A stretch of 19,667 nt of DNA from an uncultured Desulfobacterium sp. Its GTDB lineage: Bacteria; Desulfobacterota; Desulfobacteria; Desulfobacterales; Desulfobacteraceae. The translations under genes were made by a program, and so were the position numbers. The notes beneath the pieces were generated by a model, which did no database searches, was not told the origin of the DNA, and worked only from the letters and a program-made list of their open reading frames with translations. The stretch's first letter is position 1, and each line of letters starts with the position of its first letter. Of the stretch, positions 2,311 to 18,931 are shown piece by piece. The stretch spans positions 1 to 19,667 of the forward strand of contig CAKZLA010000425.1 of NCBI GenBank assembly GCA_937124525.1, in the 5' to 3' direction.

Positions 2311-3301
2311 TTATATTATCCTATCATCTGATTTTAAGGCCCCCCTGTTATGGAGAATCCATTGAGATCTGTCCAAGGGGCTGACGCCCTTAATTTCTCT
2401 TATTTTTTCTTCGGTGACTTCACAAGGTTGATAGCCACCTATTTTTAATTTCAATCGGCCCTTCCCCGAACAGCAGGCATTGAATTTAATGCTGTAATCC
2501 ATGGCTTCAGCCACCGAAACCGTTCCTTTCAAAGAAAACAGATGGCCATCAAACTGAGGATTCCCCAAATCCGCCTTCATATTGTTTAAATCGTTTGTTA
2601 TTGACCCTAACAAATCCTGGGGCGCTTTTATATCAAAATCATAAAAAGGCTCCAGTAATCGGGTTTCGGCATTTTTCAGGGCATTCATGATTCCCATGGG
2701 GGTGGCCAGTAAAAAATCCCCGGGATTGGAGTGCACCGTGTGCTCTTCACCGCTAAGCATACGTATTTTAATATCCGTGACAGGCCATCCTTTTATGCCT
2801 TGCTGCAAAGCCCAAGGGATCGCCCTTGCCACTTCGTTCTGGTATTTTTGACTGATATCGTCAACGCTCACCAAAGATTCAAATACCACCCCGGAATTTA
2901 ATTTTCCAGGGGATACACTGAACGTCATCACGGCCCAGCAGGGCTTTGGCATGGTGTAACGCACGGTGGCTTCGGACTCAGTCATAACCGTTTCTTTGTA
3001 TAGCACCCTGGGTGGTTTGATATTCACTTCAATATCAAATCGCTCTTTTAACATATGATTTAATATTTCAATCTGCATGGGACCCAATAAAAATCCGGGC
3101 TGTGGGATCTACACGGTTCATGTCATTTTTTGATGTGATCCTACAAATGGAATTTGCCAGATTGTCGGTTATGGTGGAGCCTTTGTCCACGCTGCCTGGT
3201 TTTTTGATGGCTCCGGACTGGAAAAGCAGCTGCTCGGTCAACGTGATCTTGCCAGCATCCACATGGGCCACAATACCGATATTGAGTATTTTATTTTTCA
3301 T
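2311..3301 (-). pseudogene. TetM/EF-G-like ribosomal protection GTPase with large internal deletion
   Basis: Two reading-frame pieces on the minus strand match opposite ends of the TetM-type translation GTPases. The upstream piece (about 3301 to 3068) starts [20 protein letters not shown], the family's P-loop N-terminus, but the normally invariant Lys-Thr of the G1 motif is Lys-Ile and the switch region decays quickly. The downstream piece (about 3087 to 2311, 258 residues) begins near [16 protein letters not shown] and covers the C-terminal domains (SVSPGKLNSGVVFESLVS, GWPVTDIKI, LLEPFYDFDI). The two overlap in different frames. Compared with a family length of about 640, roughly 330 residues covering most of the GTPase and following domains are missing. 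It cannot act as a GTPase. A related shorter relic lies at 8003-8205. Confidence 0.8.
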
Positions 3302-8223: not shown

Positions 8224-9528
8224 TCACAAAAATTTACGAAGATATTCATACCCAGGGGTTAAGTGGCCATTATAAACAATCACCGCTTTTTTGATCTCGG
8301 GGCAAAGCCCGGACTCATCCAGGGAACTTGCATAATCCGCTTCCAGAATATTGGCCACAAAAGGCTTTAACTGATTACTGAAAAATGTGGATGAGTCATT
8401 GGGGACTTCACAGGGCAGATTATCCACTGCCAGCACCACGATGCCATCCCCTTTGTGGCCGTCGGTGACAGCCTGGGTCAGCGGATTTACCAGGTAGGCA
8501 GGTAGACCGGAATCCGTTGATTTCACATTGCACTCAATGGAGCCATGGGTATCACAGGTGATGTCGGCAATGCCGCAAAACCGGGGAGATTCCTGTTTTT
8601 CATACAGACGTTTCAGATTCTCCCAGGTGACAAACCGGGGATATTGTTTGTCCCAGTACACAGCATTAACCAGCACGCTGATGGCTGGCATATATTGTTC
8701 AAATTTACTTTCAAACCGTTCGGGGTGGTCATAATACTCCTGGAGTTCAAAGGCCTTGCCCTCTTTATTTGCCACCAGATCTTCTTCTTTAAACACAGAG
8801 ACGTAAACGGTTCTGGGATCAAAGTCACCCTTTTCCACAAATGCGTTGAGATCCCCTGGGGCAATGCGCTGGGTGGGAAGGCAATCAAAGATCTGCTGGG
8901 CGCCACCGGAGACATTGCCATATCCCAGCACACCAATAACCATGGGGCTCAACTTTGCTGGTAACCCCTGGGATTTAATGGTCTCCCCGATTTTTGAAAT
9001 ATGAACCTTGGCATCTGCAACGGAGGTGTATTGGTGGGCGGGCTTGCATGCCTTAAAAGGCGTATCAATGCCATGGTGCGCCCAATATTCTCCCATGAGA
9101 CGGAGAATATCAATGGCCCCGGCATCCCCGGCATATCGTCCAAAATAAATAAGCCTGCGATTCTTATCGTCGGTGATCTTTTCGTAATCAATGAGGGTGG
9201 CGTTGCTGTCCATAATTTTTTTCAGAAGCGGCATTCCAGATGATTGCCCCTTGATGGTGTGGGAAAAGAAAATATAGGTTTTATCGTCCAGGATTTTTTC
9301 TTCGGGAATTTCCTTTACCCCAAAGATCACCTCCCCTTTTTCCATGCCCTCACAGGCCTGTGCTCCAGCAGCTTCATAGGCATCTTCGGTGAAAAAACGT
9401 TTTTCACTTTTTTCAATGTACCCCTTGGCTCCGGTCTCTTCCAGGATCAGTTTCAGATCCTCCGGTACAATGGATGCTCTTTTTTCCCAAATATTCTTAT
9501 CTTCTGCCCGAATAAGTAACGATTTCAT
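8224..9528 (-). CDS. Lysine-ketoglutarate reductase-type saccharopine dehydrogenase
   Basis: This 434-residue protein is the LKR half of the saccharopine pathway, as found in the N-terminal part of eukaryotic LKR/SDH fusions. It would condense lysine and 2-oxoglutarate to saccharopine with a reduced nicotinamide cofactor, or run in reverse. Residues about 5-130 form the alanine-dehydrogenase/transhydrogenase-like N-terminal domain (EKRASIVPEDL; FFSHTIKGQ at 88-95 with likely substrate-site His and Lys). The Rossmann motif GYGNVSGGAQ is at 202-211. The C-terminal part continues CGIADITCDTHGSIE and DNLPCEVPNDSS, typical of LKR enzymes. GGGAG five bases before the ATG supports the start. It follows the SDH gene on the same strand after 191 bp, so the two halves are separate genes, probably co-transcribed. 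Cytoplasmic. Confidence 0.8.
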   Translation of the reverse strand: MKSLLIRAEDKNIWEKRASIVPEDLKLILEETGAKGYIEKSEKRFFTEDAYEAAGAQACEGMEKGEVIFGVKEIPEEKILDDKTYIFFSHTIKGQSSGMPLLKKIMDSNATLIDYEKITDDKNRRLIYFGRYAGDAGAIDILRLMGEYWAHHGIDTPFKACKPAHQYTSVADAKVHISKIGETIKSQGLPAKLSPMVIGVLGYGNVSGGAQQIFDCLPTQRIAPGDLNAFVEKGDFDPRTVYVSVFKEEDLVANKEGKAFELQEYYDHPERFESKFEQYMPAISVLVNAVYWDKQYPRFVTWENLKRLYEKQESPRFCGIADITCDTHGSIECNVKSTDSGLPAYLVNPLTQAVTDGHKGDGIVVLAVDNLPCEVPNDSSTFFSNQLKPFVANILEADYASSLDESGLCPEIKKAVIVYNGHLTPGYEYLRKFL

Positions 9529-9719: not shown

Positions 9720-11042
9720 CTAAAGTATGGTTTTACGCTCAACAAATTTAATATTCAACGCTGCCAGTTCCGCCAGCACTGGTTTATATATCTGGTAATG
9801 AACCGGAATGCAAACGCCCTTTAAATCAATTTTTTCTTCGGCAATGAGCCGGGCAGAAATGGCTGCAGGCAACCCAACGGTTTTGGACATGGAGCTGTCT
9901 CCCCCGGGGGTGCCCGTGTCCATGAGTGTGGACATGGTCATCTCTTCTTTACCATCGGGATATCTCGCCACAAATTCATGGTGCTGGAGCAGCAGATCCA
10001 CCTCTCCGTCATTATAGGTCAGTTTTTCTTTTAAAATATGGGCAAACATGTCAAACACGGACACCGTCCCCAGGGTCAGGTAATCATTGCTGAACATGCC
10101 CAGCCATTCCAATTTTTTCAGGGTCAGGGAGTGTCTGGGGATTTTAAGGTAGGCAGCCACATCGCCTTTAACATCATTTCCATTACTGTGAATCATGTTG
10201 GAAATAACTTGGCAGGGAGAGGTCTCGTGCATATCAAACTTCATTTTACGATTCATGAGTCCCAGTTTTTTTAAAAATCCCCATGTTTCACAATACCCAA
10301 CATTCCTTAAGGTGCCACGATAAATATTCTGGGCCGTGGGAATATCATACAGCTTTAAATAGGGAAGCGAATCCCGATTCACATAGGCTTCAAACACCCC
10401 GGAACCGGGAATATCCGTGAGCCAGTAGTGTTCAAACAAGTCACAGCCTGGCACGTCCATAACCTTCCCATCCTCCAGGTATCTGCCATCATTACCCGCG
10501 GCAAGTAAGGCCCCTTCCGGACTCCAGGAAAATTTGTAACCAAGGGGGTTGTTATTATTTGCCATGGCTGGCAATCCACCGCAATAGGAGTGAAATGTGG
10601 TCACCTCACCACCGGCGGCCTTTATTTCATCAATGGTTTTCATGGCAGCCATGTGATCAATACCCGGATCCACCCCCACCTCATTAAGAAAAATCAATCC
10701 TTTCTCTTTGGCAGCAGCATCAAGGGCCTGCATCTCCTCTTTAACATAGGAAGCTGTTACCAGATGTTTTTTATGTTCAAGACACAGCCTTGCGATTTTG
10801 GGATGAAAAATCCAGGGAAGCAGACTGACGACAATGTCTGCCCTGGACACGGTCTCGTTGAGTTGGGCCGTATCCTGGACATCCATGGCAATGGCCCGGC
10901 CCGAAGGATGCCCCTCAATCAGTGCTTCTGCCCTGCTTTGCAATTGATCTGCAAGCACGACTTCAATATCTTCCTGGGCCAACAAATATCGTACAAGGGG
11001 ACGTGCCACAAGGCCTGCGCCTAATACCAGAATCTGCTTCAT
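9720..11042 (-). CDS. Saccharopine dehydrogenase (glutamate-forming type)
   Basis: This 440-residue enzyme corresponds to the SDH half of LKR/SDH. It would oxidise saccharopine to glutamate plus 2-aminoadipate semialdehyde with NAD(P)+. The N-terminal Rossmann motif is GAGLVA at residues 8-13. FLNEVGVDPGIDHM (118-131) and HSYCGGLPAMANNNNPLGYK (151-170) are hallmark saccharopine dehydrogenase segments. I choose the start at 11042 because GGAGG lies just upstream. An in-frame ATG at 11102 would lie inside the putative promoter and operator. The stop codon (9720-9722) is TAG, the only terminal TAG in the window, in an organism that decodes TAG as pyrrolysine. Read-through would add 17 residues up to a TAA at 9669-9671. 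An operator shared with the methyltransferase operon lies 20 bp upstream of the start. Confidence 0.85.
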   Translation of the reverse strand: MKQILVLGAGLVARPLVRYLLAQEDIEVVLADQLQSRAEALIEGHPSGRAIAMDVQDTAQLNETVSRADIVVSLLPWIFHPKIARLCLEHKKHLVTASYVKEEMQALDAAAKEKGLIFLNEVGVDPGIDHMAAMKTIDEIKAAGGEVTTFHSYCGGLPAMANNNNPLGYKFSWSPEGALLAAGNDGRYLEDGKVMDVPGCDLFEHYWLTDIPGSGVFEAYVNRDSLPYLKLYDIPTAQNIYRGTLRNVGYCETWGFLKKLGLMNRKMKFDMHETSPCQVISNMIHSNGNDVKGDVAAYLKIPRHSLTLKKLEWLGMFSNDYLTLGTVSVFDMFAHILKEKLTYNDGEVDLLLQHHEFVARYPDGKEEMTMSTLMDTGTPGGDSSMSKTVGLPAAISARLIAEEKIDLKGVCIPVHYQIYKPVLAELAALNIKFVERKTIL

Positions 11043-11061: not shown

Positions 11062-11081
11062 GTTGCTACTATTGAGGCAAC
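11062..11081 (-). promoter_or_regulatory. Operator site 3 (shared 20-bp inverted repeat) of the saccharopine operon
   Basis: On the minus strand it reads GTTGCCTCAATAGTAGCAAC. It matches sites 12399-12418 and 12587-12606 under the consensus GTTRCYYYAAWRGTRGYAAC, with 6-bp arms GTTRCY/RGYAAC and an 8-bp spacer. It lies between a possible -10 (11083-11088) and the start codon, a position suited to repression. Confidence 0.75.
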
Positions 11082-11082
11082 A

Positions 11083-11109
11083 CTAATACAGCCCTTCCCC
11101 ATGTGTCAA
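11083..11109 (-). promoter_or_regulatory. Possible sigma-70 promoter of the saccharopine dehydrogenase gene
   Basis: On the minus strand TTGACA (11109-11104) is followed by TATTAG (11088-11083) with a 15-bp spacer, shorter than ideal. The operator starts 1 bp downstream. The same order of TTGACA, -10 and operator occurs at the methyltransferase operon, which supports the call. Confidence 0.45.
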
Positions 11110-11160
11110 CTATTTTTTGGATTTGCTTCTAATTTCTTTGCCCCGATATTCAAAGTAGCA

Positions 11161-11203
11161 ATTAAAAATAAAAAAAACCGCCCATACATGTGTATGTAAC
11201 GGC
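11161..11203 (-). terminator. Intrinsic terminator downstream of the TrmB-like gene
   Basis: On the minus strand a hairpin has the core CATACA-CA-TGTATG (complement of 11083+100 region, 11183-11196) with an outer GCC/GGC pair at 11201-11203 and 11180-11182. It is followed by a run of seven T, then A and T-rich sequence (11177 down to 11161). It lies between the regulator gene and the saccharopine dehydrogenase promoter and would separate their transcription. Confidence 0.55.
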
Positions 11204-11275
11204 CTTTTCATTAACTCTTCGGTCTAACACTACAGCGACACTTTCATGATCCATCCTGTTAGGATTTAGATAGAT

Positions 11276-11413
11276 GAGTCTGTTGATTTAAAGGCGATTT
11301 CAGTCTGATTCGATTTTATTATCACAAGATATAGTGATTAACTGAACCAACATACATGATATAGACAGTACTGATACCTGAAATATGAAAATAGCGACTT
11401 AATCAACAGGCTC
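11276..11413. mobile_element. 138-bp MITE-like element with terminal inverted repeats and 6-bp target duplication
   Basis: The ends are GAGTCTGTTGATT (11276-11288) and AATCAACAGGCTC (11401-11413), inverted copies with one mismatch. They are flanked by the direct repeat ATAGAT at 11270-11275 and 11414-11419. The inside has no ORF but contains a small hairpin (ATCAC/GTGAT near 11321-11338). Length, inverted ends and target duplication together fit a non-autonomous miniature element. No transposase is in the window, so the parent family is not assigned. Confidence 0.65.
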
Positions 11414-11489
11414 ATAGATTATGAATAGATTTGCGTTATCACTTCCACAGCGGTCCTTAGCCATCATGCATGCATGAAAAAAAGTAAAC

Positions 11490-12278
11490 TCAAATATCTT
11501 TCTGGATCAGGCGATAAAGAACCTTGTCAGCATCCGACAGAGGCTGCTTGAGCTCTTCAATCTTATGAAGAAAGTAATGGAAAAAATCGTGACGAAGGCT
11601 ATCTCTCCCGGAAATAACAAACCAGTCATTTCTACCCCAGTTGAGCACAGAATTGACTTCATCTCCTGCCACAAACATGCCGCAAAGCATCTCTTTGCGG
11701 TCCACAACAATATCAAAATAGCGATGTTCCGGCCCCGGTTCATCAGTCTTCGTCTGGGGATGGATCACCTGAATTTCAAACATCTTCTCCACCGGTGCCA
11801 TAGAAATGTATTTTACCTGGACCCCCCGAAGCTCGGCGGCCTTTAAAGGTTCATCAAGATGCATCCCCTCTTTGGGAGAGATCCGGACATAAATCTCATC
11901 CCGGGCCGCACCAATCATCTCCTTTGCTTTACCCATGGCCGCCACATGCCCTTTAATTCTCCAGATCACATCACTTCCGGCCTCTTTTTCTGCATCTTTC
12001 AAATCGGTCTCCAGGGCCGACAGGGCCGACTCATGGTCATGGCGAAGCCGTTGAACCAACTCTCCAGAGGGGATGGGCGTATACATACCCCGACTGGACT
12101 CCACCGCAAACCCCTTGGATTTCAGGGTGCGGAGGACATCATAAATCCTTGCCCTGGGAATTCCGGAGTTACGGCTTAATTGAGATCCATTCACAGGATG
12201 ATCTCCCAGCAGCGATTTATATGCCGTTATGACATACTTAGAAAGCCCCACGTTCAATTCCGTAATATCTTTATTCAT
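11490..12278 (-). CDS. TrmB-family transcriptional regulator
   Basis: The 262-residue protein has an N-terminal winged helix (about residues 8-75) with the typical TrmB recognition segment GIPRARIYDVLRTLKSKGFA at 39-58. A short helical linker (SALETDLKDAEKEAG) and a C-terminal TrmB-type effector domain (about 100-262) follow. Proteins of this family bind inverted repeats and respond to small ligands, often sugars in archaea. The C-terminal part looks closer to the phospholipase-D-like effector fold seen in many such regulators; the ligand is unknown. GGGGAG eight bases before the ATG supports the start. It is divergent from the methyltransferase operon, and three copies of a 20-bp inverted repeat lie at its own upstream region and at the two adjacent operons. 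It is the best candidate to bind them. Confidence 0.8.
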   Translation of the reverse strand: MNKDITELNVGLSKYVITAYKSLLGDHPVNGSQLSRNSGIPRARIYDVLRTLKSKGFAVESSRGMYTPIPSGELVQRLRHDHESALSALETDLKDAEKEAGSDVIWRIKGHVAAMGKAKEMIGAARDEIYVRISPKEGMHLDEPLKAAELRGVQVKYISMAPVEKMFEIQVIHPQTKTDEPGPEHRYFDIVVDRKEMLCGMFVAGDEVNSVLNWGRNDWFVISGRDSLRHDFFHYFLHKIEELKQPLSDADKVLYRLIQKDI

Positions 12279-12398
12279 TTATAATTCTCCCCAAAGCCCA
12301 TGATAGAAGGCGATATTTATCAAAAAAACAGAACCCAGGATGTTGCCGTCCTTTAAAATTCTACACAACTTGGTATGGTATTTTTCGGTCCCTTAAGA

Positions 12399-12418
12399 GT
12401 TACTCTAAAAGTAGTAAC
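12399..12418 (+). promoter_or_regulatory. Operator site 1 (shared 20-bp inverted repeat) in the divergent intergenic region
   Basis: The sequence is GTTACTCTAAAAGTAGTAAC, arms GTTACT/AGTAAC perfect, 121 bp upstream of the TrmB-like start and 238 bp upstream of the methyltransferase operon. A degenerate further copy with an intact left arm begins at 12449. It could mediate autoregulation. Confidence 0.7.
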
Positions 12419-12494
12419 ATTTTCCCAGGGGCGTTTCAAGTGTTATTTGTTACTCAATCTACAATCAAGTTTTTAGGATATTTTTGCGAGAACA

Positions 12495-12522
12495 GGGTCA
12501 GATTTGTGCTTTATACTGACCC
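12495..12522. repeat. REP-like inverted repeat
   Basis: GGGTCAG (12495-12501) and CTGACCC (12516-12522) are perfect 7-bp arms around a 14-base loop. The GGGTCAGAT start resembles the element at 9551. It sits between operators 1 and 2 and could instead be a protein-binding site. Confidence 0.35.
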
Positions 12523-12533
12523 GTATGACTGAA

Positions 12534-12547
12534 AATCAAGCTTGATT
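12534..12547. promoter_or_regulatory. 14-bp perfect palindrome upstream of the methyltransferase promoter
   Basis: AATCAAGCTTGATT is a perfect palindrome ending six bases before the -35 box. The half AATCAAG recurs at about 12463-12469. The position suits an activator site distinct from the shared operator. Confidence 0.35.
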
Positions 12548-12553
12548 ATTCCC

Positions 12554-12583
12554 TTGACAGGGAAAGCAAACCATTGATATAAA
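12554..12583 (+). promoter_or_regulatory. Sigma-70-like promoter of the methyltransferase operon
   Basis: TTGACA (12554-12559) and TATAAA (12578-12583) are separated by 18 bp. Operator site 2 begins three bases after the -10 box and covers the expected transcription start. The untranslated leader would be about 65 nt. Confidence 0.6.
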
Positions 12584-12586
12584 CCT

Positions 12587-12606
12587 GTTACCCTAATGGT
12601 GGCAAC
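12587..12606 (+). promoter_or_regulatory. Operator site 2 (shared 20-bp inverted repeat) of the methyltransferase operon
   Basis: The sequence is GTTACCCTAATGGTGGCAAC, matching sites 1 and 3 under one consensus. It overlaps the predicted transcription start, so a bound regulator should block transcription until an inducer releases it. Confidence 0.75.
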
Positions 12607-12655: not shown

Positions 12656-14080
12656 ATGCCAATGGCAGCTGTCACACCGTCACTTCATCTGTTAAAAACC
12701 GAACAGATCCAACAGATCCATCAACAATCCCTGGATATTCTGTCCGCCACGGGGATACAGGTGAATTCCCCCAAAGCGGTGGAGCTATTTGCCAAATTTT
12801 CCTGTCGCATTGAAAACAACAACCAGGTCTTCATCGAAGAAGAACTGGTGCAATGGGCCCTGGATCAGGCACCATCCAGCATTAACATCCATAACCGTAC
12901 CGGAGAGCAGCGGTTTGTGCTGGGGGATCTTTCCCAGGATTCCACCCGTTTTGGAGTGGGGGTAACCAATCTCCACTACCAGGACCCTTTAACAGACCAG
13001 ACCACCCCCTTTTCCATTAAACATATGGAAACAGCGGTGCGTCTGGGGGATGCCCTGGAACAGTTTGATGTGATCTCCACTCCGGGCATTGCCCAGGATC
13101 TGGATCCGAGAAACGCCGATCTTTTCTCCAGCCTTGCCATGCTGGCCAATACCACCAAACCCCTGGTGCTGCTCATGTCGGAAAGCAACTGCTTTGAACC
13201 GACCCTGGATATGATGGAATCCCTCCATGGAAACCTGGCAGAAAACCCCTTTGTGATTCCCTATTTCAATCCCATCACCCCCTTGGTACTCAACCAAGAG
13301 ACCGTCGAAAAAATTCTGGTCACCGTGGACCGGGGCCTGCCTTTTATCTATAACAATTATGGGATGTCCGGGGCAACGGCCCCCATCACCCCGGGGGGGA
13401 CCCTGGCGCTTCTCAACGCGGAGCTTCTGGCGGGCATCGTTTTTGCCCAGATCGTCAAAAAGGGTACGCCCATCATCGCCGGAAACCTGCCAGCAGGCTT
13501 TGACATGAAAAACATGATGAGTGTTTACACCCCCCATACCATGCTCATCAATCTTGCCTGCGCTGAGATGATGAACCATTATAAAATCCCCCACTCCGGA
13601 ACCTCGGGAAGTGGACCCGGATGGGGACCAGATCTCCTGGCAAGCGGCACCTTCTGGATGAATCATCTCACAAGTATCATGGGCAAGGTGGGTCTTGCTC
13701 CCTTTGTGGGTGGCAACTTTGACTCCATGGCCTTCAGCCCGGCGGCCGTAGTATATGCCAACGAGGTGATCCGTCTCTCCCGCATCTTTAACCAGGGCTT
13801 TTCCATTGACCCTGAAACGGTGAACCTGGCTGAAATAAACGCCATGGGATCCGCAGGAAATTACCTGGCGGCCCCCTCCACGGGGAAACACTTCCGAGAA
13901 TTTCGGTTTGAAAGCCCCATCTGGCCGGGACATACCCTGGACCAATGGCAGGTCAATCAATGCCCGGATGCCGGAAAACTGTTGCGGGAATATACCCATC
14001 AGATGATTGAAACACTTACCCCGCCCGATGACCATGACGAACTCATAGACCGGGGAAAACAATTTATTGCAGCATATTGA
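12656..14080 (+). CDS. MttB-superfamily methyltransferase without pyrrolysine
   Basis: The 474-residue protein belongs to the trimethylamine methyltransferase superfamily (COG5598, TIM-barrel), slightly shorter than true MttB. Motifs shared with the next gene include the APITPGGTLALLNAELLAGI and QIVKKGTPIIAG region. Where MttB has VAGG-Pyl-GDSK, this protein has GTSG-Ser-GPGW (Ser319 in an ungapped alignment), and no TAG occurs. Pyl-lacking relatives such as MtgB demethylate quaternary amines (glycine betaine, proline betaine, carnitine) and pass the methyl to a corrinoid protein. The substrate here is unknown. AAGGGGA at 12646-12652 is only 3 bases from ATG 12656 and 9 from an in-frame ATG at 12662, so the latter may be the true start. 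It is the first gene of the operon, 34 bp before mttB. Confidence 0.85.
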   Translation: MPMAAVTPSLHLLKTEQIQQIHQQSLDILSATGIQVNSPKAVELFAKFSCRIENNNQVFIEEELVQWALDQAPSSINIHNRTGEQRFVLGDLSQDSTRFGVGVTNLHYQDPLTDQTTPFSIKHMETAVRLGDALEQFDVISTPGIAQDLDPRNADLFSSLAMLANTTKPLVLLMSESNCFEPTLDMMESLHGNLAENPFVIPYFNPITPLVLNQETVEKILVTVDRGLPFIYNNYGMSGATAPITPGGTLALLNAELLAGIVFAQIVKKGTPIIAGNLPAGFDMKNMMSVYTPHTMLINLACAEMMNHYKIPHSGTSGSGPGWGPDLLASGTFWMNHLTSIMGKVGLAPFVGGNFDSMAFSPAAVVYANEVIRLSRIFNQGFSIDPETVNLAEINAMGSAGNYLAAPSTGKHFREFRFESPIWPGHTLDQWQVNQCPDAGKLLREYTHQMIETLTPPDDHDELIDRGKQFIAAY

Positions 14081-14114: not shown

Positions 14115-15599
14115 ATGAAACGAAACTTACACGCCGGAAGACTTTTGGGTTCCGGGCTGAGTCTCAACATCCTCACCGAGGATGAGCTGGAAGAGATTCA
14201 TCTGGGAACCTTGGAGGTTCTGGCTGAAACAGGTGTGTTTGTGGAGGACCACGAGGCACTTGATCGCTTTGCACAAGGCGGTGCCCATGTGAACCGTGAC
14301 ACCCGCATGGTGAAAATCCCCCCCCATGTGGTGGAAGATGCCATTAGATGGGCCCCCTCCAAAGTGGTATTGCACGGCCGGGACCCAAAACATGACATTG
14401 TACTTGAAAGCACAAGGGTTCATTTCACCAATTTCAGTGAGGGGGTGATGATCAACGACCCCTACACCGGAGAGAACCGCCCCCCCTTTAAAAAGGATGT
14501 GGTGGATTCTGCAAAGGTAATTGATTATCTTGAAGAGATCGATTTTTGTGAAAAGGCCCTGGGTGCCCATGATGTAAACCAGGACAGTGTTGCCCTGCAC
14601 AATGCCGAAGCCTATCTCACCAACACCACCAAGCATTGCGCCTTTGGCCCGGTGAACGGCAAATTCTTAAATAAAATAATCGACATGGGAAAAGCCATTG
14701 CCGGAGGCGAGGAGGCCTTTGAAAAACGCAGACTGGTCTCATTCACCACCTGCCCGGTGAGCCCCTTGAAACTCATTGCAGACTGCTGTGAGATCATCAT
14801 GGAGTCGGCCAAAAACAATGTGGTCTGCAACATTCTCTCCATGGCCATGGCCGGCGGCACCTCTCCGGTGACCCTGGCCGGTACCCTGGTGAACCACAAT
14901 GCAGAGATCCTGGCTGGCATCACCCTGGCCCAGCTCACACGACGGGGCACCCCGGTGATCTACGGCAGCTCCACAACGGCCATGGATTTAAAACTTGCCG
15001 CTGCCACCGTGGGGACACCGGAATGTGCCCTCATCAGCGGAGCTGTGGCAAGACTTGCACGCTACTATGCGCTTCCGAGCTATGTCGCCGGTGGTTAGGG
15101 CGACAGCAAAATATCTGATACCCAGACAGGCCATGAAAAAACATTAACCGGACTGATACCCGCATTGGCAGGTGCCAATATGATATACGGTCTGGGGATG
15201 CTGGAAAGCGGCATCACCTTTGATTATGGCCAACTGGTTCTGGATTGCGAATTCGCACGGATGATCAAACATACGGTGCAGGGAATACCGGTGAATGATG
15301 AAACCCTTGCCCTGGATGCTGTCAAGGAGACAGGCCCCGGCGGAGATTACCTCATGAACCCCCACACCTTTAAATGGATGAGAAGCCAGTCCAGAGCAGA
15401 AATAATTGATCGAAAAATGCGTGGGGCCTGGGAAAAAGCCGGTGCCACCACGGCCTATGAACGGGCCATAATAAAAGTCAAAACCATAATTGAAAATCAT
15501 CAGCCCACCCCCCTGCCAGACGATGTTCTGGCCACCATTCGGTCCATTGTGACGGACACGGAACGGGAGATGGGCATTTTTAATGGAGACAACACATGA
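14115..15599 (+). CDS. mttB: Trimethylamine:corrinoid methyltransferase with in-frame TAG (pyrrolysine)
   Basis: This is one gene of 494 residues if the TAG at 15096-15098 is decoded as pyrrolysine (residue 328). The frame upstream (327 residues) and downstream (to TGA 15597-15599) is continuous. Homology runs across the TAG: PSYVAGG-Pyl-GDSKISDTQT matches the Pyl site of MttB, and the total equals the known MttB length of about 495. It transfers a methyl group from trimethylamine to the Co(I) of a corrinoid protein, leaving dimethylamine, with Pyl orienting the amine in a TIM-barrel. It contains TCPVSPLKLIADCCEI and AGTLVNHNAEILAGITLAQL, conserved in the family. The start has AGGA with a 10-base spacer. 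It overlaps mtbB by ATGA, indicating translational coupling. Cytoplasmic. Confidence 0.93.
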
Positions 15600-17002
15600 G
15601 CAACCAGATTTTAACCCGCATGGGGGATGGTGAACGGCTCTTCATGGATGTCGAAGATGTGATGGATGACATCCAGGACGGCTGTGCCGATGCGGCAAAA
15701 CGCATGGGTGTTCCCGAGCTGAGTCAAGGAGATCAGAAAAAACTCTTTGACATCCTGGCTGAACCCTCCCGCATTGTCAGTGTCAATCCCGGCGAAGAGG
15801 TCGTTGTGTCCGACGACGGCACCACCATGAGCTTTTACTCCGGCCAGGACGGCGGTGGCGTGGGCACCCCTTTAAGCCGCCAGCAGGCAGTGCTGACCTA
15901 TGAACGTGCCTGCGGGGCAGACACCACCTCCCTTGGCCACAGCGATTACTCTTACAAACCTGTCAAGAGTATCATCAACTTTGAGGCCAACGACTATTAC
16001 AATATTTCCCAGGCCACCACAGCCCCCTTCTTTTACGGTGCCCAGCCCAACATGGGGCTTTATTTCCAGCCCGATGGCCCCTGCCCCAATGCAGCAGAGC
16101 TGATGCCCCTTGGTAAAATCGAAGAGGCCAGGCGTGCCCAGGAACAGGCCTGTGAATACCTGGCCGATGATCTGGTCTTTGTGGGATCCAAACTGGCAGA
16201 GGTGGGTCTTGAGGGATTAAACTTTGACACCTCGGGCTCTGCCGGAGATGCCGACTTTCTGGCAGCTCTCAATGGAGTTGAGCGGCTCAAGGAAAAATTC
16301 CCGGATCTTCCCATCCTCATGGGAGGGGCCGGTGAGTTCATCCTTGGCATGCATGGGGAGTTGACCTATAACGATAAACGCATTGCCGGGATGTACACCA
16401 TAGACCAGGTCAAGGCCGTTGAAAAGGCCGGGGCCGACATCTACGGCATGGCGGTAAACACCTCCACCACGGAATCCGTTCCCTGGAACCTTGCCCGGGC
16501 AGTGACCTTTTTAAAGGCCACCACCGATGCGGCCACCATCCCGGTCCATGCCAATGTGGGCATGGGGGTATGCGGTATTCCCATGATGGAACAACCACCC
16601 ATTGACTGCGTCACCCGGGTGTCCAAAGCCCTTGTACAAATTGGCAAGGCCGACGGGCTGTAGATTGGCGTCGGCGATCCAATGGGAATGGCCATTGCAC
16701 ATATCATGGCATCATGCATGGGCGGTATTCGAACAGCCGGAGATCTGGTTGCCTGGATGCAGATGACCCGCAAGATGAAAATAAATGACGCCAAGGCATA
16801 TGTTGCAGAAAAACTGGGGATTGAGGTATTTGACCTGACCAATGAAGAGGTTATGCGCGAACTCAGGAAGGACCTGGGACTCGGCACAGTTACCTCCATT
16901 GCAGGCGGCCCCAAGGGCATTCGCGCAAAGATGAAAATTGCAGAACTATTAGATATTAAAATTCGGTCGGTGGAATTGTTCAAGGCTCAGATGGGCCTTT
17001 AA
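15596..17002 (+). CDS. mtbB: Dimethylamine:corrinoid methyltransferase with in-frame TAG (pyrrolysine)
   Basis: One gene of 468 residues if TAG at 16661-16663 is read as pyrrolysine (residue 356). The frame continues to TAA at 17000-17002, and the length agrees with known MtbB (about 467). The N-terminus [20 protein letters not shown] and the segments [32 protein letters not shown] and [20 protein letters not shown] are characteristic. It removes a methyl from dimethylamine, giving monomethylamine and methyl-corrinoid. TGGAG at 15584-15588 gives a 7-base spacer, and the ATG overlaps the mttB stop. ATTGG/CCAAT (16664-16668/16679-16683) can form a small hairpin directly after the TAG. No monomethylamine methyltransferase (mtmB) is seen nearby. 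Confidence 0.93.
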
Positions 17003-17019: not shown

Positions 17020-17048
17020 TCATCGCCTTGACGTATGTCGGGCGATGA
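17020..17048 (+). promoter_or_regulatory. Strong hairpin between mtbB and the corrinoid protein gene
   Basis: TCATCGCC (17020-17027) pairs with GGCGATGA (17041-17048). An inner GAC-GTAT-GTC stem (17030-17039) nearly completes one long hairpin. On the plus strand it is followed by A, not T, so it is not a canonical terminator for this operon. A role in mRNA processing or stability within the 149-bp gap is likely. Confidence 0.45.
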
Positions 17049-17151
17049 AAAAACGGACACCGTTCTCTCAAAAACGACCCCAAAGCAGATATGCCGAATA
17101 ACCAACGAAACAATACAGATCAGTTCTATTGATTGTGGAGAAAAGAGACAG

Positions 17152-17793
17152 ATGACAACAAAAATATTTGAACAGGCCAGGGAATCCATTGTTAAGGGCG
17201 ATGCCGGGCTTGCAGAAGAGATGGCAAAAAAAGGGCTGGGAGAAGGAATCAACCCCATTGAACTTATCAACAAGGGATTCATCCCCGGCATCAACAAAGT
17301 GGGAGAACTCTTTGGCATGGGGACCCTGTTTCTGCCGGAACTGATCCAGGCCGCAACAGCCATGCAGACGGCCACAGAGCTTATTAATGAAGCCATCCCG
17401 GAAAACGAAACCACCTCCGGCGGAAGGATCATCATTGGCACGGTGGCAGGGGATGTCCATGACATCGGCAAAACCATTGTGGTCTCCCTGTTCAAGGCCA
17501 ATGGATTTGAGGTAAAAGATCTGGGTCGGGATGTGTCTGTTGAAAAATTCATTGAAGGGGCTGACAAATTCAATGCCGATATCATTGGCACCAGCGCCCT
17601 TTTAACCACCACCATGCCAGAACAGAAAAAACTGGAAGAAGAGCTTAAAAAAGCAGGACTGAAAGGCCGTTTTAAAACCATGGTGGGCGGCGCGCCGGTG
17701 ACCCGGAGATGGGCCAAACGCATTGGGGCAGATGCCTTTGCCGAGAATGCCGGAGACGGGGTCAAACTTGCCAGGGAGCTGCTTGCTGGATAA
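17152..17793 (+). CDS. Methylamine corrinoid protein (MttC/MtbC type)
   Basis: This 213-residue protein fits the small corrinoid proteins that accept methyl groups from MttB/MtbB enzymes. The N-terminal helical cap (about residues 1-88) contains GINKVGELFGMGTLFLPELI. The C-terminal Rossmann-like B12 domain has GDVHDIGK (100-107), where His103 is the lower cobalt ligand of the DxHxxG motif, then GTSALLTTT and MVGGAPVT. I choose ATG 17152 because upstream GGAG and AAGAGA precede it and homologues start there; an in-frame ATG at 17035 would add 39 unrelated residues. It is the likely shared methyl acceptor of mttB, mtbB and perhaps the first methyltransferase. Sequence alone does not separate MttC from MtbC. 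A reductive activase (RamA type) and a downstream methyltransferase are not in the window. Confidence 0.9.
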   Translation: MTTKIFEQARESIVKGDAGLAEEMAKKGLGEGINPIELINKGFIPGINKVGELFGMGTLFLPELIQAATAMQTATELINEAIPENETTSGGRIIIGTVAGDVHDIGKTIVVSLFKANGFEVKDLGRDVSVEKFIEGADKFNADIIGTSALLTTTMPEQKKLEEELKKAGLKGRFKTMVGGAPVTRRWAKRIGADAFAENAGDGVKLARELLAG

Positions 17794-18067: not shown

Positions 18068-18931
18068 ATGCAAATGAAACGGAACCTGTTTTTGGGACTA
18101 TTGATGGCCGGACTCTTGATCTTTTCTGTACAAAGCACCATGGCCGCAGGATCGGTCCTTGACGAAATCATGGCCGCAGGCGTTATTAAAGTCTCCACCG
18201 ACGCCAACTATGCGCCCCAGAGTTTTCTCAACGAAAAAGGAGAACTGGAAGGCTTTGATATCAGCGTAGCCACAGAAATAGCCAAACGTCTGGGCGTTAA
18301 AGTTAAATTTATCACGCCGGACTGGGACCTCATCACCGCCGGTAAATGGGGCAAACGATGGGATATGTCTGTGGGTTCCATGACCCCCACCAAAGAGCGG
18401 AAAAATGCCCTGTTGTTTACCATTCCCTATTACAGCTCCCCTGCCCAGTTTGCCATCCACAAAGATAACACCACCATCAAAACCATTGATGACTTAAAGG
18501 ATAAAAAAATCGGTGTTGCCTCGGAGACAACCAATGAGAGATTCATGCAGCAGGATCTTGATATCCAGGACACCAAAATCACCTATCTCTCCTGGAAGCC
18601 CAGCCATTCAAATTTAAAAACCTATCCCACCGATGCCAATCAGATTGAAGATTTGGCCCTGGGTGATGGTGCCCGTCTGGACGCTGTTTTTACCTCCCGC
18701 CAGACCCTGGCCCAGTCCATTACAAGTGGATGTGGTAAGGGATGTCCCCTGAAAATGCTGGGCGATCCCACCTATTATGAACCCTTAAGTGTTGCCCTTG
18801 ACAAAAGCCGTAAAAACAGCGAATCCCTGGTGCAAAAACTAAATGAAGTTATTGATTCCATGTACAAAGACGGAACCCTTGTAAAACTCTCCATGGATTT
18901 TTATGGCACCAATCTGATTCCCAAATTGTAA
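18068..18931 (+). CDS. Amino-acid-type ABC transporter substrate-binding protein
   Basis: This is a 287-residue periplasmic protein of the family-3 (polar amino acid, PF00497) binding proteins. A signal peptide covers residues 1-26 (MQMKRNL start, LLMAGLLIF core, cleavage after Thr-Met-Ala). The mature part has the family signature VIKVSTDANYAPQSFLNEKG, then LEGFDISVATEIAKRLG, VGSMTPTKERKNALLFTIPY and LKDKKIGVASETTNERF. GAGGAG at 18057-18062 with a 5-base spacer fixes the start. It follows the methyltransferase operon after 274 bp and precedes a cognate permease. The ligand is likely an amino acid or a methylated amino-acid derivative given the neighbours, but the binding-pocket residues were not assigned. 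Confidence 0.85.
   Translation: MQMKRNLFLGLLMAGLLIFSVQSTMAAGSVLDEIMAAGVIKVSTDANYAPQSFLNEKGELEGFDISVATEIAKRLGVKVKFITPDWDLITAGKWGKRWDMSVGSMTPTKERKNALLFTIPYYSSPAQFAIHKDNTTIKTIDDLKDKKIGVASETTNERFMQQDLDIQDTKITYLSWKPSHSNLKTYPTDANQIEDLALGDGARLDAVFTSRQTLAQSITSGCGKGCPLKMLGDPTYYEPLSVALDKSRKNSESLVQKLNEVIDSMYKDGTLVKLSMDFYGTNLIPKL

Follow-up and report, generated by a model that had tools for sequence, protein, structure and literature searches.

Three copies of a 20-bp inverted repeat are present in a 19,667-nt stretch of contig CAKZLA010000425.1 from an uncultured Desulfobacterium sp. (the whole stretch is called the window below). They lie among the genes for LYS1, LYS9 and a TrmB-like regulator on the minus strand and those for mttB1, mttB2, mtbB, a corrinoid protein and a solute-binding protein on the plus strand. 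We propose, with a probability of roughly 0.8, that the three palindromes serve as operator sites for the TrmB-like protein of positions 11490..12278, a putative autoregulated repressor of LYS9-LYS1 and of the methylamine operon. The most likely role of this protein would be autoregulated repression of lysine/ornithine-type catabolism, together with control of the pyrrolysine methylamine methyltransferases.

Site 1 (GTTGCCTCAATAGTAGCAAC, positions 11062..11081, minus strand) is located upstream of LYS9, with 19 bp separating it from the start codon. Site 2 (12399..12418, minus strand; GTTACTCTAAAAGTAGTAAC on the plus strand, GTTACTACTTTTAGAGTAAC on the minus strand) lies upstream of the TrmB-like gene, and site 3 (GTTACCCTAATGGTGGCAAC, 12587..12606, plus strand) upstream of mttB1. 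All three are imperfect palindromes, and their counterparts in the locus of Desulfocicer vacuolatum (L008), whose regulator is 90% identical to that of the window, are found at L008:11026, L008:9697 and L008:9607, respectively. The earlier note on this DNA, made from the sequence alone, had reported these repeats together with a consensus. Allowing up to three mismatches, the consensus matches the window three times, exactly at the three sites, against a mean of 0.14 and a maximum of 2 in 200 shuffles, a comparison that is partly circular as the consensus itself derives from the three sites. The positional claims of that note also hold: two of the repeats directly follow predicted -10 boxes of divergent operons (TATAAA for mttB1, TATTAG for LYS9), and the third is 120 bp upstream of the start of the TrmB-family gene (12278). 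DNA looping between sites 2 and 3 was considered and rejected; their start-to-start spacing is 188 bp in the window and 90 bp in the D. vacuolatum locus, and there is therefore no conserved phase.

A profile search with the regulator yielded 79 genome loci, of which L001-L054 are closer (40-90% identity) and L055-L079 are distant relatives in other bacteria. In a quick tree of 85 different regulator rows, two large branches of 24 and 61 rows were resolved (SH-like approximate likelihood ratio test 99 each; midpoint root), and the window belongs to the smaller one. LYS9 or mttB is found nearby in 20 of the 24 rows of the window's branch, and a class III aminotransferase of ornithine type in 53 of the 61 rows of the larger branch. 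In 27 larger-branch loci, all fetched by protein, we took the 320 nt preceding trmB and collected every palindrome of two 7-nt arms around a 6-nt centre, irrespective of its letters; a preceding variant of this test includes 28 loci fetched by the motif, and the final version only the 27 protein-fetched ones. Fourteen perfect palindromes were obtained, and 13 of them have the arm GTTGCTA, i.e. GTTGCTA-N6-TAGCAAC. A model built from the perfect palindromes places the three sites at the top of the window (11062, 12587 and 12399, with 21.7, 13.3 and 12.7 bits; next place 8.0), and with one mismatch allowed in the palindromes the same three sites lead (16.0, 13.1 and 11.3 bits; next 10.5).

A second model, made of 36 sites, ranks the three sites 1-3 in both the window and the D. 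vacuolatum locus; these training sites come from other loci, mostly beside the aminotransferase (exceptions are L027, with LYS1-LYS9, and L029, with mttB and mtbB), yet they were chosen with an earlier 27-site model. In both models site 1 ranks first in the window and sites 2 and 3 take ranks 2 or 3. Applied to 25 loci of the window's branch, the 36-site model has its best match no more than 250 bp ahead of a cluster gene in nine (p = 4e-6; expected share 5.5% of the sequence). The 27-site model was trained on a set that includes the three window sites, and scores and site selections made with it are partly circular; this applies to the counts given below of genomes with the regulator subfamily, of promoter spacing at 96 sites, and of 20 among 25 window-branch loci.

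The exact palindrome GTTGCTA-N6-TAGCAAC was then sought in 193 relatives of D. vacuolatum, mostly draft or metagenome assemblies, with the pattern read backwards as control. This search and the search for a Desulfosarcina variant described below are independent of regulator-based fetching, though not of the choice of pattern; several of the other counts use regulator-fetched loci. The palindrome occurs at 60 sites in 55 of the 193 genomes, 51 of which have a single site; the reversed control gave 8. Fifty-three sites are 19-83 bp (median 37) upstream of a match to the regulator family and two more are at 234 and 436 bp, distances that end at the 5' end of the protein match and not at a mapped start. 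With 55 of 60 blindly found sites within 436 bp of the regulator, and the window sites ranked 1-3 by the letter-blind model, the comparison supports the proposal of the earlier note that this is a TrmB-type operator of a local regulon. Among 30 motif-fetched loci, 28 have the regulator, followed by the aminotransferase in 26 of them; in L116 the site stands just before an aldehyde ferredoxin oxidoreductase gene, and L101 has neither. As a separate observation, an aldehyde ferredoxin oxidoreductase gene occurs near the aminotransferase and the regulator in four larger-branch loci (L034, L036, L039 and L049).

The regulator subfamily is present in 54 of the 55 genomes with the site versus 12 of the 138 without it. 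Here a carrier is a genome whose best match reaches about 240 bits or more, plus two with fragments (G059, 154 bits; G009, 103 bits), and 19 further genomes of the 85 with a match at 1e-20 (best about 84-144 bits) were scored as lacking the subfamily. If all 85 matching genomes are counted instead, the site is found in 54 of 85 versus 1 of 108. The exception, G056, has a weak homologue (27% identity, E-value 4e-16) 37 bp from its site, which is included in the 53 above.

Within the window's branch, 20 of 25 loci have a site, the window included; in 19 it precedes trmB, mttB1, mttB2 or LYS9, and in L015 an aminotransferase-family gene. The Desulfosarcina group has a variant, GTTGTNC-N6-TGACAAC. 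It occurs twice in the 7.3 Mb of D. alkanivorans (before trmB and before LYS9), twice in G167 (before trmB and before mttB1), once in D. widdelii (before trmB), once in D. infernum (before mttB1) and not in G188, and the reversed control has no match in any of the five genomes; the pattern was derived from the same loci, so that the added information is the absence of further matches in these genomes. In D. vacuolatum, among 24 scored places (12 from a loose-pattern search and 12 picked among the matches listed for a degenerate pattern), the three sites of this locus are the highest (22.6, 20.8 and 18.2 bits; next 15.9), and four of five lower-scoring places that were inspected are inside open reading frames of at least 100 codons. 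In these comparisons with relatives, the motif is thus neither scattered over many unrelated places nor absent from orthologous promoters, two of the three outcomes that the earlier note had named as fatal to its proposal.

Two attempts with looser patterns were discarded: the degenerate pattern with three mismatches gave fewer matches than its control (307 vs 965), and the loose pattern GTTRYY-N8-RRYAAC was uninformative in Desulfamplus, where a dispersed repeat dominates the matches. In that genome (G002, locus L001), the dispersed 20-mer GTTGTCTGAACCAGGATAAC and its close variants make up most of the listed matches among 183 to the loose pattern; this seems to be a repeat spread through the genome that has no relation to the operator. 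A site near Desulfamplus pylS, away from trmB, was also rejected, as the best place in about 9 kb on each side (13.8 bits) is inside an open frame. A weaker possible fourth site, GTTAACACAAAATTGGCAAC, was noticed at L008:2632-2651 (13.8 bits), between the binding-protein and permease genes; it has a one-mismatch -35 box 29 nt upstream and ranks third or fourth in L008 by the letter-blind models.

The position of the sites relative to predicted promoters is narrowly defined. The predicted mttB1 promoter (12554..12583, plus strand) consists of TTGACA at 12554-12559, an 18-nt spacer and TATAAA at 12578-12583; the operator begins 3 nt after TATAAA, and TTGACA is also present in the D. vacuolatum locus. 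The predicted LYS9 promoter (11083..11109, minus strand) has TTGACA at 11104-11109 and TATTAG at 11083-11088, one base before the operator, and an alternative reading of the -10 box extends into the operator. A LYS9 TTGACA 27-28 nt before the site is also found in L008, L001, L011 and L019. Of 96 distinct sites with flanks, both sides of which were examined, 78 are preceded by an exact TTGACA whose first base lies 24-35 nt ahead of the site. The hexamer starts exactly 26 nt before the site 36 times, against 0.83 on average and at most 26 for rearranged hexamers. With this spacing, most often 26 nt, the sites therefore cover the -10 box or the start point; given a 17-nt spacer, the -10 box ends inside the operator and shares its opening letters, an example being TATGTT in L017. 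A protein bound on the -10 box or the start point normally blocks transcription, and strong -35 boxes usually need no activator. The operator thus lies over the predicted core promoter, in what would be the geometry of a repressor, and repression is the simple reading because a protein bound there would block RNA polymerase.

This geometry also bears on the possibility that the TrmB-like protein binds these sites as an activator, or as a dual regulator comparable to archaeal TrmBL1/Tgr, and switches on both operons. According to the accessible text of a review of the TrmB family, archaeal members may repress or activate depending on the position of the site, and the window trmB site, 120 bp from the start, is not behind a good -35 box. 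However, 78 of 96 sites are placed on the -10 box or start point behind a perfect TTGACA, and we consider activation unlikely. It is much less probable still that another nearby regulator owns the palindrome. Examples would be the AraC-type gene behind LYS1 in L008 and the GntR-type gene ahead of mttB1 in L009, but in the family clustering neither was grouped with a gene from a different locus, and the gene recurring at the blindly found sites is the TrmB-like one. Finally, each inverted repeat could form a short hairpin and two of the three are shortly upstream of a coding sequence, but RNA hairpins, attenuators or chance repeats with no protein partner are hardly credible in view of the narrow spacing to the -35 box, the location of sites in divergent promoter regions, and an Rfam search at gathering thresholds that returned just PYLIS_2 and PYLIS_3 in the window; a chance origin is rejected by the shuffle test, the blind genome search and the letter-blind model together.

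Several results weigh against the operator and autoregulated repressor proposed here. Five of the 60 exact sites are not beside the regulator: one is near a family 3 binding-protein gene (L183), one near Na+/H+ antiporter and pyruvate-ferredoxin-oxidoreductase-type genes (L184, the same locus as L101), and one in a locus whose sole open reading frame encodes an ATP-binding cassette (ABC)-type ATPase (L186); at another (L185) the open reading frame scanned has no family match. In the D. vacuolatum locus, two of the three counterpart sites lead by the letter-blind model and the third ranks fourth or fifth. The top match to the 36-site model lies elsewhere in 16 of the 25 window-branch loci, because the palindrome has drifted in this branch. 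In the count of 20 sites in 25 loci, five loci are siteless, of which L005 and L009 have weaker sites (12.1 and 13.6 bits), L014 has a variant, L024 has none and L050 starts within the gene. Over about 9 kb on each side of pylS, no site was found in D. vacuolatum (best 7.1 bits) or D. infernum (4.0 bits). In addition, the window trmB site and its counterpart in L008 have no TTGACA at the usual distance.

The regulator itself (262 aa, 11490..12278, minus strand) combines a winged helix-turn-helix with a short PLD-fold effector domain. The helix-turn-helix matches PF01978 (TrmB) with 48.3 bits over residues 10-67 (cut-off 25.6), and PF11495 (Regulator_TrmB) is matched with 23.2 bits (cut-off 22.2), covering just profile positions 2-58 of 233. 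The equivalog cut-offs of the NCBIfam models were not reached for TrmB (56.5 of 600 bits), TrmBL1 (55.2 of 650), TrmBL2 (34.6 of 530) or halobacterial TrmB (34.0 of 500). The predicted structure (predicted local distance difference test 87.6, predicted template modelling score 0.70) matches the folds of TrmB and TrmBL2, with a folded domain from about residue 100 to 262. The model of the effector domain aligns with TrmB residues 110-260; it matches the first part of the archaeal sugar-binding domain in fold and lacks the final portion, and a ligand other than a TrmB-type sugar is therefore expected. In the recognition helix, R42, R44 and Y46 are invariant in the 80 rows compared (of 85; five omitted). 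The 61 larger-branch rows have A (three times S) at position 41 and S at position 43; of the 19 rows from the window's branch, 18 have P at position 41 and 15 have A at position 43, a change that fits the shift in the inner letters of the site between the branches.

The sites, their recurrence with the regulator family, their placement over predicted promoters and their recurrent gene partners are observed directly, and it is binding, dimerisation, repression and a ligand that we infer. The TrmB-like protein would bind as a dimer, one monomer per palindrome arm, and repress three promoters, which drive its own gene, LYS9-LYS1 and mttB1-mttB2-mtbB-corrinoid protein. LYS9-LYS1 would serve lysine breakdown via the saccharopine route, and the methyltransferase operon the removal of methyl groups from quaternary amines and methylamines. 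At the mttB1 and LYS9 promoters, where the site covers the -10 end or the start point, RNA polymerase would be kept out until a small molecule tied to lysine or ornithine breakdown releases the repressor. Such a ligand is suggested because both branches adjoin enzymes turning the terminal amino group of lysine or ornithine into an aldehyde, the aminotransferase in the larger branch and LYS1-LYS9 in the window's.

Other loci illustrate how these genes are combined. In L011, L012 and L013, genes read as pylSn-pylD-pylC-pylB-pylSc stand between the trmB site and a site before LYS9 or mttB1, the second site being in the divergent region adjoining pylSc; in L011, PylD alone is supported by a Pfam domain of its own. 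PylC matches its own domain with a score below the cut-off, PylB and PylSc are assigned from generic domains together with gene order, and PylSn is a putative assignment. The order in L018 is binding protein, site, mttB1, LYS9, LYS1, mttB2 and mtbB. D. alkanivorans and D. widdelii keep LYS9-LYS1 together with the regulator, and a pylS family search gave no match above the cut-off in either; the lysine link is therefore independent of pyrrolysine.

Pyrrolysine is made from lysine, and N6-trimethyllysine is the laminine of marine algae. Based on the gene neighbourhood, we tentatively raise the rather doubtful idea that the regulon marks an undescribed anaerobic pathway for methylated lysine, e.g. 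N6-trimethyllysine. The amino-acid transporter would import the compound, MttB1 and the methylamine methyltransferases would move its methyl groups into the corrinoid pathway, and LYS1-LYS9 would degrade the lysine skeleton. The repressor might then sense lysine, methylated lysine or the semialdehyde product, coupling lysine supply to pyrrolysine use. In the open-access literature searched, no paper was found that joins trimethyllysine with MttB or with corrinoid, which neither supports nor contradicts this idea.

Judged from its closest relatives, the host of the window looks like a marine sulfate reducer. LYS9 (9720..11042, minus strand) is a saccharopine dehydrogenase of the glutamate-forming type, with saccharopine reductase, saccharopine dehydrogenase and human alpha-aminoadipic semialdehyde synthase (AASS) as nearest solved chains; its start was set at 11042 instead of the mechanical 11102. 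For the LYS1-type enzyme (8224..9528, minus strand) the nearest solved chains are AASS. On the plus strand, mttB1 (12656..14080) encodes an MttB-superfamily methyltransferase (Pfam MTTB) with no in-frame TAG, reaching 237.6 bits against the trimethylamine equivalog cut-off of 525, and mttB2 (14115..15599) a trimethylamine methyltransferase (731.5 bits, cut-off 525) with an in-frame TAG read as pyrrolysine at residue 328. The dimethylamine methyltransferase gene mtbB (15596..17002) has an in-frame TAG at residue 356 and matches Pfam Dimeth_Pyl on the part before it. One TAG is read through in each of mttB2 and mtbB, at which the mechanical list of open reading frames breaks both genes, and Rfam pyrrolysine insertion elements lie at 15096-15195 (PYLIS_3, mttB2) and 16661-16760 (PYLIS_2, mtbB). 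A methyltransferase corrinoid protein (17035..17793) and a family 3 amino-acid-type solute-binding protein (18068..18931), assigned by family matches, follow. A 27-nt inverted repeat (11274-11300 and 11389-11415, 78% complementary, 88 nt apart) is situated between the regulator and LYS9, and at 2311-3301 on the minus strand two open reading frames resemble, by eye, two pieces of a broken elongation-factor-G-like gene.

The earlier note had called the operator undescribed, and among the open-access matches listed no study, by title, deals with it or with a member of this bacterial branch; subscription journals were outside the search. Likewise, a text search for the two half sites gave none on the subject by title among the matches listed. 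In addition, lysine-breakdown enzymes and methylamine methyltransferases under one site would point to a shared substrate or signal, one named by no paper title found. In comparison with archaeal TrmB of Pyrococcus furiosus and Thermococcus litoralis, a chain of 342 residues, the protein here has 262, and the alignment ends near TrmB residue 260-265. The archaeal operator is TACT-N3-AGTA and its neighbours are sugar genes, whereas here GTTGCTA-N6-TAGCAAC accompanies amino-acid and methylamine genes. The accessible part of the TrmB review lists TACT-N3-AGTA, TATCAC-N5-GTGATA and TACT-N7-8-GAGTA; by inspection, the arm GTTGCTA matches none of the three, and window site 2 contains TACT-N5-AGTA, not the conserved core of the other branch. 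The archaeal chromatin protein TrmBL2 is similar in chain length (264 residues), domain order, sequence (E-value 3e-15) and fold, but it binds coding and intergenic regions according to the same part of the review, whereas those here are a few local palindromes. In Methanosarcina acetivorans, the TrmB-family protein MreA is a repressor of methylotrophic pathway genes; as described in the accessible text, however, it is global and has neither a C-terminal regulator domain nor an identified motif, whereas the present protein has a folded C-terminal domain and looks local. A similar gene neighbourhood in marine Deltaproteobacteria is described by Kivenson et al. 2021 (PMC8318568). Genes for a trimethylamine methyltransferase, an LAO-binding protein, an ABC transporter and a methyltransferase of glycine-betaine type are accompanied there by a 'transcriptional regulator' whose role was left undetermined and for which the accessible text names no family, operator or regulon. 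From the gene order, that regulator is probably the same gene as the TrmB-like one. For the methylamine and pyrrolysine genes of marine sulfate reducers, near which that text (PMC8318568) reports a regulator without a role, the sites described here would name a candidate switch. They would also give a concrete operator and regulon to a bacterial branch within a regulator family whose descriptions come mainly from archaea.

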